Below, one piece after another: positions 13,011-61,848 of a stretch of DNA of 64,000 bases (positions are counted from its first letter, which is position 1; each line of letters starts with the position of its first letter). A program made the position numbers and the translations under genes. The notes under the pieces are model-generated. The model was given only the letters and a program-made list of their open reading frames with translations. It had not been told where the DNA came from and ran no database searches. The DNA is from Fictibacillus sp. FJAT-27399 (GTDB lineage: Bacteria > Bacillota > Bacilli > Bacillales > Fictibacillaceae). Location of the stretch: contig NZ_LMVC01000002.1 of assembly GCF_001510655.1 (NCBI RefSeq), positions 1,718,388 through 1,782,387 on the forward strand, in the 5' to 3' direction.

Positions 13011-15032
13011 TTATACTGCTTTACTCTCTTTCTGTCCTTGTTGAATTTGATACATTTGAAAATAGCGGCCTCGGGCTTCCATCAATGAAGTATGATCGCC
13101 CTTTTCAACAATTCTCCCGCGATCCAGGACAAGAATCTGGTCCGCATTTTTAATGGTGGACAGCCTGTGGGCAATGATAAAGGTCGTTCGTCCCCTCTTC
13201 AGCACATCAAGCGCCTCTTGAATGATGGCCTCTGTTTCAGTATCGATACTAGCCGTTGCCTCATCCAAAATTAAGATTGCTGGATTGAACGCCAGGGCTC
13301 TTGCAAAAGAAAGAAGCTGCCTTTGACCGGAAGAAAGAGTGCTTCCTTTTTCGATGACGGGTTCATCCAATCCTTTTGGAAGGTTTTGTACAAACGGCAT
13401 CGCTCCTACATCATTAATGGCCTTTTCTACCATCTCTCTTGAAATCGAGGGGTCATCCAGGCTGATGTTCGAAGCGATGGTTCCCGTAAATAGAAATGGA
13501 TCCTGCAGAACAATCCCCATATGCTCCCTGAGCACCTGCTTTGGCATTTTCATAATATCCTTGCCATCAATAAGGATTCTCCCCTGCTTAATATCATAAA
13601 ACCGGAAAAGAAGGTTCATAATAGAGCTTTTTCCTGACCCCGTATGGCCGACAAGAGCTACCGTTTCGCCCTGCCTTGCTTCAAAGGTAATATCATTCAA
13701 GACATTCTCACCTTCTTTATAAGCAAATGTAACTCCATTGAATGTTACATTTCCTTTATAACGCTCAACTTCCTGTACCTTCACATCCATACCCGGTTCA
13801 TCCAGCAGGACAAATACACGCTCTGCTGATACGAGCGCCTGCTCAAGCTGGGCGAGCTGGTTAACCATCCCGGTGATGGGCTGGAACAGCCGGTTCAAGT
13901 AATCAACAAAAGCATAGAGGACCCCAACGGAAATCAGGGTGTCCGTCTTAAGTGAGGCCCCTCCGAAGTACCAGATCAAGGCAACAAACGCTAAATTCCT
14001 AAGTACACTCACAAGGTTGTGAGAAGTAAGGCCATTTAAACTCAATAACCTATTTTGAAAAGAAAAATATTTCTCATTCATCTCTTCAAACTCTTCTGTC
14101 GTTTCCTTCTGCCGTTTAAACGCCCGTATAATTGGCATGCCTTGGATGGATTCGTTGACCATTCCATTGATGTCGCTCAGTGTTGAACGGATAATATGGT
14201 TATACTTAGAAGCCAGTTTTCGATAGAGTTTAATCCAAACAACCAGAATTGGCACGAGAATCATCGTGATCAATGCGAGACGCATATCCAGAATGAACAG
14301 CGCTGTGAAGATTCCCGCCATATAAATAATGCCTGTGAAGAAATTAGAAAGTACATTAACGTACAGCTCTTTAATTGCTTCTGTATCATTCGTCACCCGT
14401 GATACTATTTTTCCTGCCGGCTGATTATCAAAATACGTAATCGGCACTCTCTGGATCTGTGAAAATACATCCTGCCGCAGCTTCTTGATGACCAGATTGG
14501 AGGAGCTCTGCAGCATATACCTCTGTCCGTACTGAAACAATCCAGCAAACAACAAAAGAACAAAATAAATGCCCGTCAGCTTAAACAGCCCTCTGATCTC
14601 GGGCTTATAAAATTTAAAAAGCTCACTGTTCTTCAGCTGTACTGCCGGATATTTAGTGGTTACACCTTTAGAAGTGACCATGATTTCCTTGTTTTTGTAA
14701 CTCTTTTCCCCTTCTAATTTTGCGGGCTGATTAATGAAGTAATACTTTCTCCCAATCTGTGTAATCCTGGCCTGTTTTCCTTTTGGTTCACCGGACTGAA
14801 AACGATCTTCGCGCTGATATCGGCTCCCCTTATAAGAAACCGTGTCTTTATCTTGAGCAGTCGTTTCAAACCAAGGCTTTTCAATGCCTAGAATGTGAAC
14901 ATCAATCATGCGCTTGGCGATGAACGGACCGGTTAACTCTGCTGATACGGCTAAAGCCAGCAATAGCAGACCTATAATAAAACTTTTTTTATAAATCAGT
15001 GCGTAACGAAATAATCTCTTCCCTACGTTCAA
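13011..15032 (-). CDS. bmrD: Heterodimeric multidrug ABC exporter subunit BmrD (YheH)
   Basis: A 673-residue half-transporter, the same length as B. subtilis BmrD. Six membrane helices and an ATPase domain: Walker A VGHTGSGKSS, signature LSSGQRQLLSFARAL, Walker B ILILDEATASID with a normal catalytic Glu. A long insertion between helices 1 and 2 (about residues 50-145, rich in Lys and Tyr) matches the extracellular domain known for BmrD. It starts 3 bases after bmrC stops; the two form one drug exporter in the membrane. Confidence 0.93.
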   Translation of the reverse strand: MNVGKRLFRYALIYKKSFIIGLLLLALAVSAELTGPFIAKRMIDVHILGIEKPWFETTAQDKDTVSYKGSRYQREDRFQSGEPKGKQARITQIGRKYYFINQPAKLEGEKSYKNKEIMVTSKGVTTKYPAVQLKNSELFKFYKPEIRGLFKLTGIYFVLLLFAGLFQYGQRYMLQSSSNLVIKKLRQDVFSQIQRVPITYFDNQPAGKIVSRVTNDTEAIKELYVNVLSNFFTGIIYMAGIFTALFILDMRLALITMILVPILVVWIKLYRKLASKYNHIIRSTLSDINGMVNESIQGMPIIRAFKRQKETTEEFEEMNEKYFSFQNRLLSLNGLTSHNLVSVLRNLAFVALIWYFGGASLKTDTLISVGVLYAFVDYLNRLFQPITGMVNQLAQLEQALVSAERVFVLLDEPGMDVKVQEVERYKGNVTFNGVTFAYKEGENVLNDITFEARQGETVALVGHTGSGKSSIMNLLFRFYDIKQGRILIDGKDIMKMPKQVLREHMGIVLQDPFLFTGTIASNISLDDPSISREMVEKAINDVGAMPFVQNLPKGLDEPVIEKGSTLSSGQRQLLSFARALAFNPAILILDEATASIDTETEAIIQEALDVLKRGRTTFIIAHRLSTIKNADQILVLDRGRIVEKGDHTSLMEARGRYFQMYQIQQGQKESKAV

Positions 15033-15035
15033 ATC

Positions 15036-16790
15036 TTACACCGCCTTTTCATCGAAGGTTTCTTCGACTTTTTGCCGTTCGTACTGCTCACCATACCAGC
15101 CTCCGGAGGAGATGAGCTGTGCGTGTGTACCTTCTTCGATAATCCTTCCTTCATCCATTACGATGATCCAATCAGCATGTTCTACTGCTGATAACCTGTG
15201 GGTCGTAATAAAAGTGGTCTTTCCTGCCCGTTCTTTTCTGATGTTTGCGATGATTGCTGCTTCCGTCTTAGCATCAACAGCCGATAGCGCATCATCAAGC
15301 ATGAGGATTTCCGGATCAATAAATAACGCCCTGGCGATAGAAACACGCTGTTTCTGTCCGCCCGATAACGCTACTCCTTTTTCTCCGACAAGCGTATTCA
15401 ACCCTTCCGGCAAATATTTCACGTCACGGTCAAAGGAGGCCATCCGAAGGACGTGCTGAAGCTCTTCTTCTGTTCCGCTGCTTTTGCCAAATAAGATGTT
15501 CTCTCTTATTGTTTTAGAAAATAGAGTGGCATCCTGAGGTACATAGCCGATCCATCCCTGGATATCTTCAATGGCCAACTGATGAAGATCAATGCCGGAA
15601 ATTTGGATTTCTCCTTCACCTAAAGGATACTCTCTGAGCAGCTGTTTCAGGAACGTCGTTTTTCCGCTTCCTGTGCGGCCTACAATCCCAAGCGTCTGTC
15701 CTTTTTTCACCCCTGCATTCACGGACACAAGATTATCTACCTCAGAAGAAGGATAGCGGAAGGTCACATCATGAAATGCAATCTCTCCAGGTTCTTTGAG
15801 AGGGATGAGGTCATCTTCATTTTTAACGTCCGGTTCATAAGCGAGAGTCTCGTTCACCCTGTCAAGTGAAGCATTTCCCCGCTGCATGATGTTGATCAAT
15901 TCTCCAACAGCGAACATGGGCCAAATGAGCATACCAAGGTAAACGTTAAAAGAAACCAACTGCCCTAATGTGATACTGTTATGAAACACCAGATACGCCC
16001 CGTACCCAAGACCGATCAAGTAGCTGATGCCGACGAGTACTTTAATAGTCGGTTCAAACAGCGCATCGATTTTAGCAACGGCGATATTTTTACCGTACAC
16101 ATCGTCGGTAAGGTCATTGAACCGCTCGATGTCTTCCCGCTCTTTCACGTAGGCGCGAATAACCCTTACTCCTGAAATGCTTTCAAGCACCTGGTCATTC
16201 ATGTCCCCGAAGGCATCCTGTGCTTTCATGAACCGCTCATGAACTTTCTTTCCATACCTGTTCATGGCAATGGCCATTAAAGGAAGCGGCAATACAGCAG
16301 CCAGCGTCAAATTCCAGCTGATGAAAATCCCCATCGTAAAAAGGATAACCAGCATAAATACACTGGAATCAACAAGTGTTAATATCCCGAAACCGGCAGT
16401 AACGGAGATCGCCTTCAAGTCATTGGTAGCTCTTGCCATCAAATCTCCTGTCCGGTTCTTTTCGTAAAATGCCGGTGTCATTTTCAACAGGTGTCGCATG
16501 AATTTCGAACGAAGAATCCGCTCAACAACAAACGCCCCTCCAAACAACTGATACATCATGAAATACGTTAAAATATAGGTTACTGTTAACAAACCTAAAT
16601 AAAATAAGATCGTTTGTACAAGCGACTCTTTTGTCAGCTTGCCGAGATTGATCGCATCAATCGCATTGCCGACGATCTTCGGCGGAATGACTTCCAAGAT
16701 GCCGACAACAATTAATAACAGAACAGCAATCGTATATCGTTTCCAATGCTGTTTAAAAAACCAGCCTAATTTGCTCAGTACCGAAAACAT
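15036..16790 (-). CDS. bmrC: Heterodimeric multidrug ABC exporter subunit BmrC (YheI)
   Basis: A 584-residue half-transporter (B. subtilis BmrC is 585). Six membrane helices, Walker A VGRTGSGKTT, signature LSGGQKQRVSIARAL, and Walker B EILMLDDALSAVDAK, where Asp replaces the catalytic Glu, as expected for the degenerate site of this heterodimer. The ATG at 16790 is chosen because GGGGAAAGGGGAGAATTT precedes it. Upstream lies a 420-base leader with a peptide ORF, a hairpin and a factor-independent terminator, so transcription into the gene is probably attenuated. Confidence 0.93.
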   Translation of the reverse strand: MFSVLSKLGWFFKQHWKRYTIAVLLLIVVGILEVIPPKIVGNAIDAINLGKLTKESLVQTILFYLGLLTVTYILTYFMMYQLFGGAFVVERILRSKFMRHLLKMTPAFYEKNRTGDLMARATNDLKAISVTAGFGILTLVDSSVFMLVILFTMGIFISWNLTLAAVLPLPLMAIAMNRYGKKVHERFMKAQDAFGDMNDQVLESISGVRVIRAYVKEREDIERFNDLTDDVYGKNIAVAKIDALFEPTIKVLVGISYLIGLGYGAYLVFHNSITLGQLVSFNVYLGMLIWPMFAVGELINIMQRGNASLDRVNETLAYEPDVKNEDDLIPLKEPGEIAFHDVTFRYPSSEVDNLVSVNAGVKKGQTLGIVGRTGSGKTTFLKQLLREYPLGEGEIQISGIDLHQLAIEDIQGWIGYVPQDATLFSKTIRENILFGKSSGTEEELQHVLRMASFDRDVKYLPEGLNTLVGEKGVALSGGQKQRVSIARALFIDPEILMLDDALSAVDAKTEAAIIANIRKERAGKTTFITTHRLSAVEHADWIIVMDEGRIIEEGTHAQLISSGGWYGEQYERQKVEETFDEKAV

Positions 16791-16832
16791 AAATTCTCCC
16801 CTTTCCCCTTCATGTTCCTGCAAACAAACGTG

Positions 16833-16889
16833 CTACCCCGATTCGAGATGGGCTTCAGAATTCAACCTGACCATAGAAAATACATACAT
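16833..16889 (-). CDS. Candidate second leader ORF directly upstream of bmrC, 18 aa
   Basis: An 18-codon frame, MYVFSMVRLNSEAHLESG, with AAAGGAG nine bases ahead of its ATG at 16889. It lies after the attenuator and before bmrC, so it would be translated only on read-through transcripts. A second ATG at 16896 in another frame is too close to the same ribosome site. Its role, if any, might be to shape ribosome loading on bmrC. Confidence 0.35.
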   Translation of the reverse strand: MYVFSMVRLNSEAHLESG

Positions 16890-16932
16890 AGTGCATTGCT
16901 CCTTTATGTGAAAAAATTTGTGAAACCAACTT

Positions 16933-16967
16933 GAAAAGCGCAAGCGCCCTGGATGCTGGAGCTAGAC
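16933..16967. repeat. Dispersed Bacillus intergenic repeat (GCGCAAGCGCC ... GGAGCTAGAC)
   Basis: The segment GAAAAGCGCAAGCGCC followed by GCTGGAGCTAGAC is of a type often seen between genes in Bacillus-related genomes. A diverged copy is at 59584-59632. Here it lies between the bmr attenuator and bmrC. Confidence 0.55.
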
Positions 16968-16971
16968 AAAA

Positions 16972-17005
16972 GAAAAAAGCATACCGCCCCTGTGGCGATA
17001 TGCTT
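16972..17005 (-). terminator. Attenuator terminator in the bmrCD leader
   Basis: On the minus strand the stem AAGCATATCGCC / GGCGGTATGCTT with ACAGG loop is followed by TTTTTTCTTTTG. It lies 68 bases past the stop of the leader peptide and about 180 bases before bmrC, so it would stop transcription before the structural genes. Confidence 0.85.
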
Positions 17006-17017
17006 AGAAAAACAAAA

Positions 17018-17049
17018 GACACCTCACAAAGGAAAATGTGACCGGTGCC
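17018..17049 (-). promoter_or_regulatory. Upstream hairpin of the bmrCD attenuator
   Basis: Minus-strand arms GGCACC and GGTGTC, extended by TCACA / TGTGA after a two-base bulge, form a hairpin just before the terminator. It is a candidate regulatory partner of the attenuator. Confidence 0.5.
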
Positions 17050-17072
17050 TGTGAATAAACGAAAAAGAATGA

Positions 17073-17165
17073 CTAGTGTTCTTTCATCTCTGGGTGGCCG
17101 GCCGCACTATGAAATTGAGAAACAACGATATGACGAACATCATTGATTTTCACTGACTTTTTCAT
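17073..17165 (-). CDS. Leader peptide of the bmrCD attenuator (BmrB-like), 30 aa
   Basis: A 30-codon ORF begins MKKSVKINDVRHIVV and ends GHPEMKEH. AAGGGATGGTTGG lies before its ATG at 17165. A promoter lies about 50 bases upstream and a hairpin plus terminator follow. In B. subtilis the bmrB leader peptide controls bmrCD by ribosome-mediated attenuation when antibiotics slow translation; this ORF holds the same place but is shorter (B. subtilis BmrB is about 54 residues). The codons CAT ATC G in the ORF repeat the 5' arm of the terminator, so leader RNA could pair with the terminator's 3' arm. Confidence 0.7.
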   Translation of the reverse strand: MKKSVKINDVRHIVVSQFHSAAGHPEMKEH

Positions 17166-17211
17166 GACCAACCATCCCTTCAAAAATTTGGTATTGTTTT
17201 CGACTTCGCTA

Positions 17212-17241
17212 ATATTAACACTATTCTAACTATAATGTCAA
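17212..17241 (-). promoter_or_regulatory. SigA-type promoter of the bmr leader-bmrCD unit
   Basis: Minus strand TTGACA (17236-17241) and TAATAT (17212-17217) with an 18-base spacer. Confidence 0.75.
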
Positions 17242-19798: not shown

Positions 19799-19901
19799 CT
19801 ATTTATTGTTCTGAAAAAACTCGTAGCATCAATAAACAGTTATGACGAAATAAGCTTTCAAGGATTGTATTTTTAAACAATGCCAAATAAGCGTTCTTCA
19901 T

Positions 19902-20046
19902 TCCTTCTCCCATCCAGACTATACTGTCGGCTCTGGAGTTTCACCAGATCCACCGTCTATGCACACTGCACAGCCGGGTCACGGACTAAGAGGACAAATC
20001 CTCATCACCGCCGGTTGGGAATTTCACCCGACCCCGAAGGAAACAT
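19902..20046 (-). promoter_or_regulatory. FMN riboswitch (RFN element)
   Basis: The minus strand shows the conserved RFN blocks: CTTCGGGGTCGGGTGAAATT, CCGGCGGT, a variable arm, GTGAAACTCCAGAGCCGAC and AGTATAGTCTGGATGGGAGA. It senses FMN and shuts off the downstream ribE-ribBA-ribH genes through the terminator at 19762-19798. Confidence 0.95.
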
Positions 20047-58461: not shown

Positions 58462-58857
58462 TCAGATCCAATTGCTCATTCTCTCAGCCAAAGAGCCTGT
58501 GTTAAGCTCCAGCTGTATGCCATCAGGATCCAAAAAATTAACGCAGCGTCCTCCGCCTCGTTCTAAAGGGCCTCTGATAATTTTTACTTCGTTAGCTATA
58601 AGGATTTCAACTGCTTGATCAAAATCTGCTTCAAGTACAGTGAAAGCCGCATGGTCTATACCTGCTGATACCCTATCCGCTTTCTTAGCTTCTCCCCGTT
58701 CCATTAAACAAATCCACACTGGCCCCCACTCGAGATATGCGTCAGTCCGCCCTCTGTGAACAAGCTCAGCTTTTAATATATTTTGATAAAAAATCAGCGA
58801 TCGGCTTAAATTTCCAACAGCAAAAGTTAGGTGATTGACCCCCTGGATTTTGATCAT
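58462..58857 (-). CDS. VOC-fold metalloprotein, FosB-like
   Basis: A 131-residue glyoxalase-fold protein. GVNHLTFAVGNLSRSLIFYQ, GIDHAAFTV and IQLELNTGSLAERM place two His and one Glu as the metal triad and match the layout of FosB, the bacillithiol-S-transferase that inactivates fosfomycin. The middle part (WICLMERGEAKKADR) differs from known FosB in my memory, so the substrate is open. Its start touches the yhcW stop. It is not part of the yhcX-yhcW pair in B. subtilis. Confidence 0.75.
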   Translation of the reverse strand: MIKIQGVNHLTFAVGNLSRSLIFYQNILKAELVHRGRTDAYLEWGPVWICLMERGEAKKADRVSAGIDHAAFTVLEADFDQAVEILIANEVKIIRGPLERGGGRCVNFLDPDGIQLELNTGSLAERMSNWI

Positions 58858-59583: not shown

Positions 59584-59632
59584 GAAAAACGCAAGTGCCC
59601 AGCTAAAATCCGACAAGCACTGGAGCTAGACA
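59584..59632. repeat. Diverged copy of the GCGCAAG ... GGAGCTAGAC intergenic repeat
   Basis: GAAAAACGCAAGTGCCC and CACTGGAGCTAGACA correspond to the two ends of the repeat at 16933-16967, with about 18 other bases between. Confidence 0.5.
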
Positions 59633-60681: not shown

Positions 60682-61848
60682 TTATTTTGCTGCTTCTCTT
60701 TTTCTGAAAAAGCTTTTCATGGAATGATATACATCTGCTTTTTCTTTAAGAATATAATAATTGAATTTAGGATCTGTGATGTTTTTATACACACTCATCA
60801 AAGTGGAATGGCGGTTATAGGCATTGACCTCGCCATATCCAAACATATTACTGTGCTCCATAATTTCCTGCACAAGCTTAACGCAACGAGCATTGTCGCT
60901 TGTCAGATTATCACCGTCTGAAAAATGAAAAGGATAAATATTAAACCGTGATGGTGAATACTTTGTTTCAATTAATTCCAGGGCTTTACGATAAGCTGAC
61001 GAACAAATCGTTCCTCCGCTCTCCCCTTTTGAAAAGAAATCTTCTTCTGTTACAACTTTCGCTTCTGTATGATGAGCAATAAATTCAATTTCCACTGTTT
61101 CGTATTTGGAACGCAAAAAACGGGTCATCCAAAAGAAAAAACTTCTTGCCATGTATTTTTCCCAAATCCCCATTGATCCTGATGTATCCATCATAGCAAG
61201 GACGACAGCTTTTGATTCCGGTTTTACGACTTCATTCCAGGTTTTAAAACGCAGGTCGTCGTTATAAATGGGTGCTATTGCCGGTTTTCCTTTTAAGGCA
61301 TTGCGCTTAAAAGCAGTTAGAATGGTGCGTTTCTTATCTACGTTCCCCATTAATCCAGTCTTGCGAATATCGTTGAACTCAACCTTTTCCAGAACGATAT
61401 TGTCCTGTTCTTTTTGTTTTAAATCCGGCAATTCCAGCTCTTTAAACAAAAATTCCTGAAGCTCTGCAAGTGATACTTCCGCTTCCGAATAATCGGCTCC
61501 CGGCTTGTCGCCTGCCTGGCCTTTGCCCTTTCCAGCTCCAGCCTGGTTTCCGTTCCCATCTCTCGCCACCACGTCTCCTACCTGGCTGTCACCGTCCCCC
61601 TGCCCTACATGCTTATTCTTCTCATAATTGTATCGGATTTTGTATTCATCCAGGGAACGGATTGGTATTTTAATAACATCACGCCCATTGGATAGAATAA
61701 TGTTTTCTTCACTGATTAGATCTGGCAGGTTGTTTTTAATGGCCTCCTGGACCTTTTCCATGTGTCTCTGATGATCCTGATAGCCTTTGCGGTGGAGGGA
61801 CCAGTTCTCTTGAGAAACGGCAAAATTGTTTTTAGCTTCCTCGCTCAT
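60682..61848 (-). CDS. yhbH: Sporulation protein YhbH (DUF444)
   Basis: A 388-residue cytoplasmic protein (B. subtilis YhbH about 392). The N-terminal part is helical; residues 85-115 are Gly/Asp-rich ([20 protein letters not shown]); the C-terminal half has a von Willebrand A-type fold with [18 protein letters not shown] (MIDAS-like) and [13 protein letters not shown]. In B. subtilis it is expressed with the kinase PrkA and spoVR in the mother cell; here prkA is not in view. GGAGGGGAAATA precedes the start. Confidence 0.94.

Follow-up and report, generated by a model that had tools for sequence, protein, structure and literature searches.

The window analyzed here is the whole stretch of 64,000 nucleotides (nt) from Fictibacillus sp. 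FJAT-27399, and this text concerns the leader that directly precedes its orthologues of the Bacillus subtilis drug-export pump genes bmrC and bmrD. All positions are those of the window. On the minus strand, from 17241 to 16790, the order is a promoter, a leader open reading frame (ORF1) whose ribosome site stands upstream of the terminators, a first terminator-like hairpin (T1), a second terminator (T2) and another small frame (ORF2), with bmrC and bmrD next (Table 1). We read this as a probable two-stage, ribosome-sensing leader, in which ORF1 would govern transcription and ORF2 would act afterwards on bmrC.

Layout of the bmrCD Leader

Table 1. Features of the bmrCD leader and operon in the window.
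Feature	Position	Strand	Basis
bmrC (yheI orthologue)	15036..16790	(-)	ATG start; protein match to B. subtilis YheI (BmrC), E 4.6e-258
bmrD (yheH orthologue)	13011..15032	(-)	Protein match to B. subtilis YheH (BmrD), E 1e-273
Promoter TTGACA-18-TAATAT	17212..17241	(-)	Sequence; TTGACA and 18-nt spacing also in L006-L008
ORF1, 30-codon leader peptide, ATG to TAG, own ribosome site	17073..17165	(-)	
Segment 1 (ORF1 ribosome site and start region; partner segment 2)	17166..17178	(-)	Minimum-energy fold; covariation, 75 clusters
Segment 2 (GGCCGGCCACCC, ORF1 3′ part; partners segment 1 or T1)	17092..17103	(-)	Fold; covariation
T1, first terminator-like hairpin (segments 3 and 4)	17017..17050	(-)	Hairpin search; covariation; folding
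T2, intrinsic terminator (segments 5 and 6), then T run	16977..17005	(-)	Terminator search
ORF2 MYVFSMVRLNSEAHLESG-TAG, 18 codons and TAG, ribosome site AAAGGAG	16833..16889	(-)	

The elements named in an earlier note on this DNA (promoter, ORF1, hairpin, terminator and ORF2) are all present on the minus strand. What that note had missed is that the hairpin T1 is itself terminator-like and that T1 and T2 form a recurring tandem. The closest named record for BmrC is from F. terranigra, at 94%. The promoter is not significant by itself, two promoter-like sites being found against 1.5 in shuffles, and the TTGACA with its 18-nt spacing recurs in all three same-genus leaders whose aligned stretch spans the whole promoter. 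Between 16700 and 17350 there are two terminator-like sites against 0.5 expected, namely T2 and a site at 17317-17285. The latter closes off the rib genes, the neighbors of the leader on its upstream side; ahead of those genes a flavin mononucleotide (FMN) riboswitch lies at 19898-20045 on the minus strand. Within the leader itself there is no match to Rfam at gathering thresholds.

Leaders Compared

BmrC was used to search genomes at three levels, 7 from the genus, 34 from the family and 199 from the order; 140 of the 199 matched at the set threshold. Leaders were drawn from these genomes, from 80 named loci and from 30 of the 31 genomes of the genus to which the B. subtilis-type genomes belong and, as a separate set, from 30 of the 54 matching genomes of other orders. 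After identical sequences were merged, 254 distinct leaders, still mutually related, were compared. The paralogues L010-L013 were excluded, and L092, L137, L176, L195 and L283 have no usable bmrC start. L093 and L106 carry Paenibacillus in the record name and were grouped under "other Bacillales" on account of their leaders. Because a ribosome site was required when ORF1 and ORF2 were selected, the energies of these sites are not independent evidence. Covariation was tested by comparing the pairing of two segments within their own leader with the pairing to the same segment from other leaders (cross); for these tests ORF1 was chosen without reference to the pairing arm.

A Probable Four-Segment Switch at the First Terminator

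Of the 254 leaders, 248 have one or more terminator-like hairpins ahead of ORF2 or bmrC and 194 have at least two, counts that come from a terminator finder run without a shuffled control. T1 could be named in 161 leaders, and 159 of these have an ATG-type leader ORF, complete with ribosome site, ahead of it. The ORF1 ribosome site pairs with the 3′ end of ORF1 (1:2) at 19.9 own versus 15.4 cross (p 1e-11), and that 3′ end pairs with the 5′ arm of T1 (2:3) at 18.8 versus 14.2 (p 6e-13), both over 75 clusters. Control pairings in the same design show no such excess: 1:3 gives 10.7 versus 10.5 (p 0.34, 75 clusters), and the T1 3′ arm gives 13.75 own versus 14.31 cross. When all 15 pairs among six segments are considered over 65 clusters, only 1:2, 2:3, 3:4 and 5:6 stand out. 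The segments at the ORF1 3′ end that are used by 1:2 and 2:3 overlap by at least 3 nt in 48 of 75. The pairings 1:2, 2:3 and 3:4 are mutually exclusive, as in four-segment attenuators of the trp type. Examples of 2:3 in other leaders are GTGACCTGT with ACAGGTCAC, GTAACCCGC with GCGGGTTAC, TGGCCTGC with GCAGGTCA and ACATAACC with GGTTATGT. The window has a short version, GGCCGG (17103-17098) with CCGGTC (17045-17040), six pairs of which one is G-U.

T1 has an alternative pairing that excludes it, in that 2:3 and 3:4 both covary and the fold shifts with ribosome position. With the window folded to the end of T1, the probability of T1 is 0.69 when the RNA is free. Placing a ribosome near the ORF1 start brings it down to 0.31, with 2:3 then at 0.38, and a ribosome at the ORF1 stop gives 0.69 again. 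The claim for this stage is carried more by the covariation than by the folding energies. Judged from sequence comparison, the leader is supported as a ribosome-sensing transcription attenuator ahead of bmrCD whose alternative stems covary in relatives.

The earlier note had proposed that the control known from B. subtilis works here, by means of a CATATCG in ORF1 that repeats the 5′ arm of T2 and could pair with its 3′ arm. The first half of that proposal holds up, since 1:2, 2:3, 3:4 and the T2 stem 5:6 all covary in relatives, where the note had suggested looking for covarying stems. The switch by CATATCG does not. The motif is present in ORF1 (17132-17126) and in the T2 5′ arm, but its ORF1 copy is found only in L003 and L004, which are of one species, and is absent from L005-L008 (six same-genus leaders in all), and T2 is without any covarying alternative partner.

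The ORF1 peptides show no enrichment of the macrolide-type +X+ motif (18 of 75 versus 16.4 in shuffled peptides). ORF1 of the g2 Fictibacillus leaders (L016, L019, L022 and others) contains QIAVTVV, which we take to resemble the IAVV stretch of a macrolide-arrest peptide. At a similar place in ORF1 there is HIAV in L004 and HIVV in the window.

The Second Terminator

The T2 stem covaries with itself (5:6) and with nothing else that was looked for. The best helix to the upstream stretch, sought as a competing partner, scores 14.85 own versus 15.04 cross (68 clusters), and the T1 3′ arm with the T2 5′ arm scores 11.25 versus 11.76 (p 0.91). T2 would act as a second barrier after T1. In B. subtilis, point mutations in the corresponding terminator increased expression about 5-fold and did away with control by lincomycin (PMC4191407).

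The spacer between T2 and ORF2 contains a fragment of a repeated element (TGTCTAGCTCCAGC...). This element has four copies in the window with at most two mismatches (16955-16968, 58500-58513, 59619-59632 and 61529-61542; 0.22 expected), the first being the fragment in the spacer. Both ends of such an element also occur in leaders L059, L115, L180 and L181, so it entered the T2-ORF2 spacer more than once; its motifs are in 16 of the 254 leaders.

A Second Conserved Reading Frame Ahead of bmrC

A candidate ORF of 12-40 codons with a ribosome site stands just before bmrC in 113 of the 137 usable order-level leaders. Its last residue is Gly in 103 of the 113, compared with 5 of 160 other ORFs of the same leaders. 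Among the 103, the stop codon is TAG in 88 (31 of 160 in the control ORFs), the residue before the final Gly is Gly or Ser in 92, and the third-last residue is Glu or Asp in 93. In a set of 133 distinct 3′ ends taken from all leaders, the last codon is GGC in 54, GGT in 31, GGA in 26 and GGG in 22, and the stop is TAG in 101, TAA in 22 and TGA in 10. The base after the stop is C in 64, T in 54, A in 14 and G in 1, so that it is a pyrimidine in 118 of 133; after other nearby TAG triplets the pyrimidines make up 101 of 285 (A 118, G 66, T 53, C 48). The length is 16-20 codons in 126 of the 133 and exactly 18 in 73. The consensus thus ends [ED][SG]G-UAG-Y. Acidic residues also occupy positions -5 and -6, in addition to -3, following a more basic stretch. 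Most of the information is in the last five or six residues, and the N-terminal half varies between families.

The pattern of codon substitution suggests that selection acts on the peptide. In groups sorted by shared ending, which in itself lowers pN, the ratio of nonsynonymous to synonymous change (pN/pS) is 0.66 in frame, as against 1.13 and 1.18 when the codons are read in either of the other frames. Conserved peptide residues adjoin the stop codon, as would be looked for in a peptide that arrests termination. An RNA motif in place of a peptide was considered for the ORF2 ending and rejected, since Gly is encoded by each of its four codons and Ser mostly by AGY, with TCN in five. Joining of ORF2 to bmrC by readthrough was likewise rejected; the distances are spread evenly over the three frames, and an in-frame, open path to bmrC exists in only 20 of 133.

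The second ORF had been described as having no known counterpart, whereas counterparts occur in 31 of the 37 sampled families of the order; the sample from families f21 and f41 has none. Under a looser rule without the ribosome-site test, the ORF2 ending is found in all 29 Bacillus leaders, in 146 of the 202 from other Bacillales and in 1 of 23 of the Paenibacillus type, and in 1 of 254 control stretches taken further upstream. Under a strict rule it occurs in 30 of 76 named leader windows, Paenibacillus-type ones included, and nowhere in the other 568,634 nt of these loci. Outside the order, family f49 has ORF2 in 4 of 8 leaders plus two variants ending EGD (L300, L321), and the eight other families have it in 0 of 22. 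Other variants end in NST (family f24: L173, L175, L198) or DGT (family f5: L183); all three kinds keep the TAG stop, and they are natural material that could show which residue of ORF2 matters.

A pattern search for ORF2-like endings in seven genomes gave 31 matches against 9 in a reversed control. ORF2 itself accounts for five and in-frame small ORFs for two more; the remaining matches were judged by eye in part only. The match in L296 is a small ORF antisense inside a sugar-nucleotide gene. In a Bacillus genome, L294:1877-2044 (minus strand) holds a small ORF ending EFSDSG-TAG between ORFs of 54 and 320 amino acids (aa), the former of which looks like a DNA-binding protein. This small ORF is probably unrelated to ORF2 and possibly lies in a mobile element.

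The Leader Frame of B. subtilis

In PMC4191407 bmrB is a frame of 162 bp with a GTG start; 119 bp separate its end from bmrC, and the terminator changes are at C136 and C140. Leader L262, which we take as that of B. subtilis by its fit to these numbers, holds exactly such a frame, 162 nt long and coding for 53 aa, with 119 nt from its end to bmrC and a C at each of the two positions. An ATG ORF of 23 codons begins 16 nt upstream of this GTG and contains it; the ribosome site of the ATG ORF is at -15.6 kcal/mol versus -5.2 for the GTG frame. In general the B. subtilis-type leaders have an ATG leader of about 23 codons akin to ORF1 of the window. Of the 14 Bacillus leaders compared (from 29), all have the ATG ORF1, and seven have a frame of the 53-aa type running on through the terminator.

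We think it quite probable that the ATG ORF is the principal leader in B. subtilis. The opposite view, with the published 53-aa frame of BmrB as the actual leader in that species and ORF1 as incidental, seems improbable to us, though there is evidence on that side. In PMC4191407 a BmrB-GFP fusion is fluorescent when overexpressed from a plasmid, and the 42-nt overlap in nine B. subtilis-type leaders, 8 of them distinct, has its lowest pN/pS in the 53-aa frame (0.53, versus 1.31 for ORF1 and 0.72 for the third frame). The overlap is, however, structured RNA with small codon counts. The same source has the single-copy fusion dark and a start-codon mutant of bmrB that also removed upstream alternative starts and ribosome sites. 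The GTG start 16 nt into ORF1, its weak ribosome site and the patchy occurrence of the long frame beside the constant ATG ORF1 argue on the same side. The earlier statement that the window's peptide differs in length from the B. subtilis one is then probably misleading; the difference probably reflects annotation, the 53-aa BmrB being an overlapping frame. ORF1 of the window ends at 17073, before T1 begins at 17050, and is not a 53-aa frame with a terminator inside it. Since such a frame belongs to the description of bmrB and not to the mechanism, we do not call ORF1 BmrB.

Proposed Action and Alternatives

Taken as a whole, the best explanation is a two-stage leader, an attenuator at ORF1 followed by ORF2 acting in cis on bmrC, and we give it a probability of roughly 0.6. 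In the first stage the pairings are established by covariation and their action is inferred. With no ribosome on ORF1, segment 1 would hold segment 2, T1 (3:4) would form and transcription would stop. A ribosome that finishes ORF1 would cover segment 2, and T1 would form again. A ribosome slowed or stalled early in ORF1 would instead cover segment 1 and leave segment 2 free to form 2:3, which would prevent T1 and let transcription continue. Results reported in PMC4191407, where loss of leader translation lowered expression and removed induction by lincomycin, fit this model.

For the second stage it is the conservation that is observed. ORF2 is downstream of both terminators, so it cannot decide termination there. 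Transcripts that pass the terminators would carry ORF2 and translate it from its own ribosome site, and slow release of the peptide would be expected at the acidic-[Ser/Gly]-Gly-stop, the stop usually being UAG followed by a pyrimidine. A ribosome held at this stop, typically about 30 nt before the bmrC start, might tune bmrC in cis by ribosome handover, by the timing of initiation or by shielding of the mRNA. Peptide release is reportedly inefficient on a C-terminal Gly (Pierson 2016, as cited in PMC7246954), and stop codons that follow a C-terminal Gly are overrepresented among the sites of apidaecin-induced arrest (PMC7544508). Acidity at -3, -5 and -6, downstream of a more basic stretch, would suit a slow nascent chain as well.

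Other accounts of ORF2 were weighed. It could be a coupling ORF only, delivering terminating ribosomes to the nearby bmrC start with a peptide that is irrelevant beyond its shortness. The median distance of 31 nt to bmrC (interquartile range 22-38) is favorable to this, as is the strong ribosome site of ORF2 (mean -11.1 kcal/mol versus -8.9 for bmrC), which owing to the selection rule is not independent evidence. Plain coupling, however, needs no terminal Gly in 103 of 113, no acidic residue at -3, no UAG, no pyrimidine after the stop and no in-frame codon pattern, and we regard it as unlikely. A translation attenuator like that of ermC, with a hairpin that hides the bmrC ribosome site until a drug-stalled ribosome opens it, would be at home with the single leaders in which pairing of that site is high (above 0.6 in 20 of 88 clusters). 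The mean over the 88 clusters is no higher than in shuffled context (0.461 versus 0.480, p 0.25), and the partners of the site are scattered (0.12 in ORF2, 0.05 intergenic, 0.24 in bmrC itself), which makes hiding of this kind most improbable. Selection on the peptide would also be seen if ORF2 encoded a small functional peptide with a target other than its own mRNA, such as the pump. Against this, the information is concentrated in the last residues, tied to the stop codon and next base, the N-terminal half is variable, and a peptide acting in trans would not be expected to keep the identity of its stop codon. We consider this explanation very unlikely. A 3′ end conserved at the peptide level, mostly with UAG, together with the reported slow release on a C-terminal Gly and the lack of hiding of the bmrC site, favors slow termination in cis, so ORF2 is best read, from sequence comparison, as a second leader peptide that would terminate slowly and act in this way on bmrC.

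There are points against the two-stage reading. The equilibrium switch is weak: over 73 leaders the mean probability of T1 is 0.60 with the ribosome near the start and 0.70 with it at the stop, and a drop of at least 0.15 is found in just 16. When the folded part of the window is extended to take in T2, T1 persists in the minimum-energy structure with the ribosome near the start. T1 could be named in only 161 of the 254 leaders, and the model does not explain the passage of T2, for which no alternative partner was found. As for ORF2, 34 of the 137 order-level leaders are without a Gly-ending one, the pump is present without it in other orders, and its distance to bmrC ranges from 8 to 78 nt. 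The residue at -3 is not always acidic in Fictibacillus (LFG in g2; LGSG or LGTG in L006-L008). That the bmrC ribosome site is no more hidden than in shuffled context counts here as well.

Under the two-stage reading, the model leader bmrB gains a four-segment switch that can be tested, and the analysis suggests that the peptide named BmrB in the literature is not the principal leader. It also reveals a second conserved leader peptide, carried by B. subtilis-type genomes too, whose C-terminal signature is a concrete lead on slow translation termination as a possible means of gene control. Our search found no description of ORF2 or reassignment of BmrB in the literature, though most subscription papers were outside its reach and absence from print is not shown. 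We tentatively suggest a step further, that ORF2 represents a new class of termination-sensing leader peptide, in which [ED]-[SG]-Gly at a UAG-pyrimidine holds release and the occupancy reports slow or trapped release. If so, what is sensed could be release-factor stress or termination inhibitors or mimics, and the pump operon would read two ribosome states, elongation stress through ORF1 at transcription and termination stress through ORF2 at translation or mRNA stability. In some bacteria transcription is thought to run ahead of translation. The present leader bears on how ribosome-coupled attenuation can work where that is so.

Comparison with Known Systems

Attenuators of the trp type have mutually exclusive 1:2, 2:3 and 3:4 pairings, with a leader ORF that spans segments 1 and 2. 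Here segment 1 is instead the ribosome site of the ORF itself, so an untranslated leader would end in termination. The presumed signal also differs, being ribosomes slowed by a drug and not a scarce amino acid, and a second terminator follows. Among termination-arrest leader peptides, TnaC, SpeFL and MsrDL are short and have their conserved part at the stop codon. ORF2 is like them in both respects, its own arrest being putative; it is not known to have a sequence likeness to any of the three, no comparison of sequences having been made.

The vmlR leader of B. subtilis, as described in PMC9226507, is also antibiotic-responsive, with a very short upstream ORF and terminator, antiterminator and anti-antiterminator hairpins, and it too has read-through followed by control on translation. 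It differs in that its upstream ORF has three codons, a hairpin hides the vmlR ribosome site and no counterpart of ORF2 is described. The nearest relative is bmrB-bmrCD of B. subtilis itself. By the account in PMC4191407, the two systems share orthologous pump genes, a promoter, a translated leader, a terminator and an alternative structure, and published work there makes the drug response dependent on leader translation. As published, the bmrB leader is a 53-aa frame with the terminator inside it. The window and most of the leaders compared have instead a shorter ATG ORF and a covarying four-segment switch on T1, and a second conserved ORF follows.

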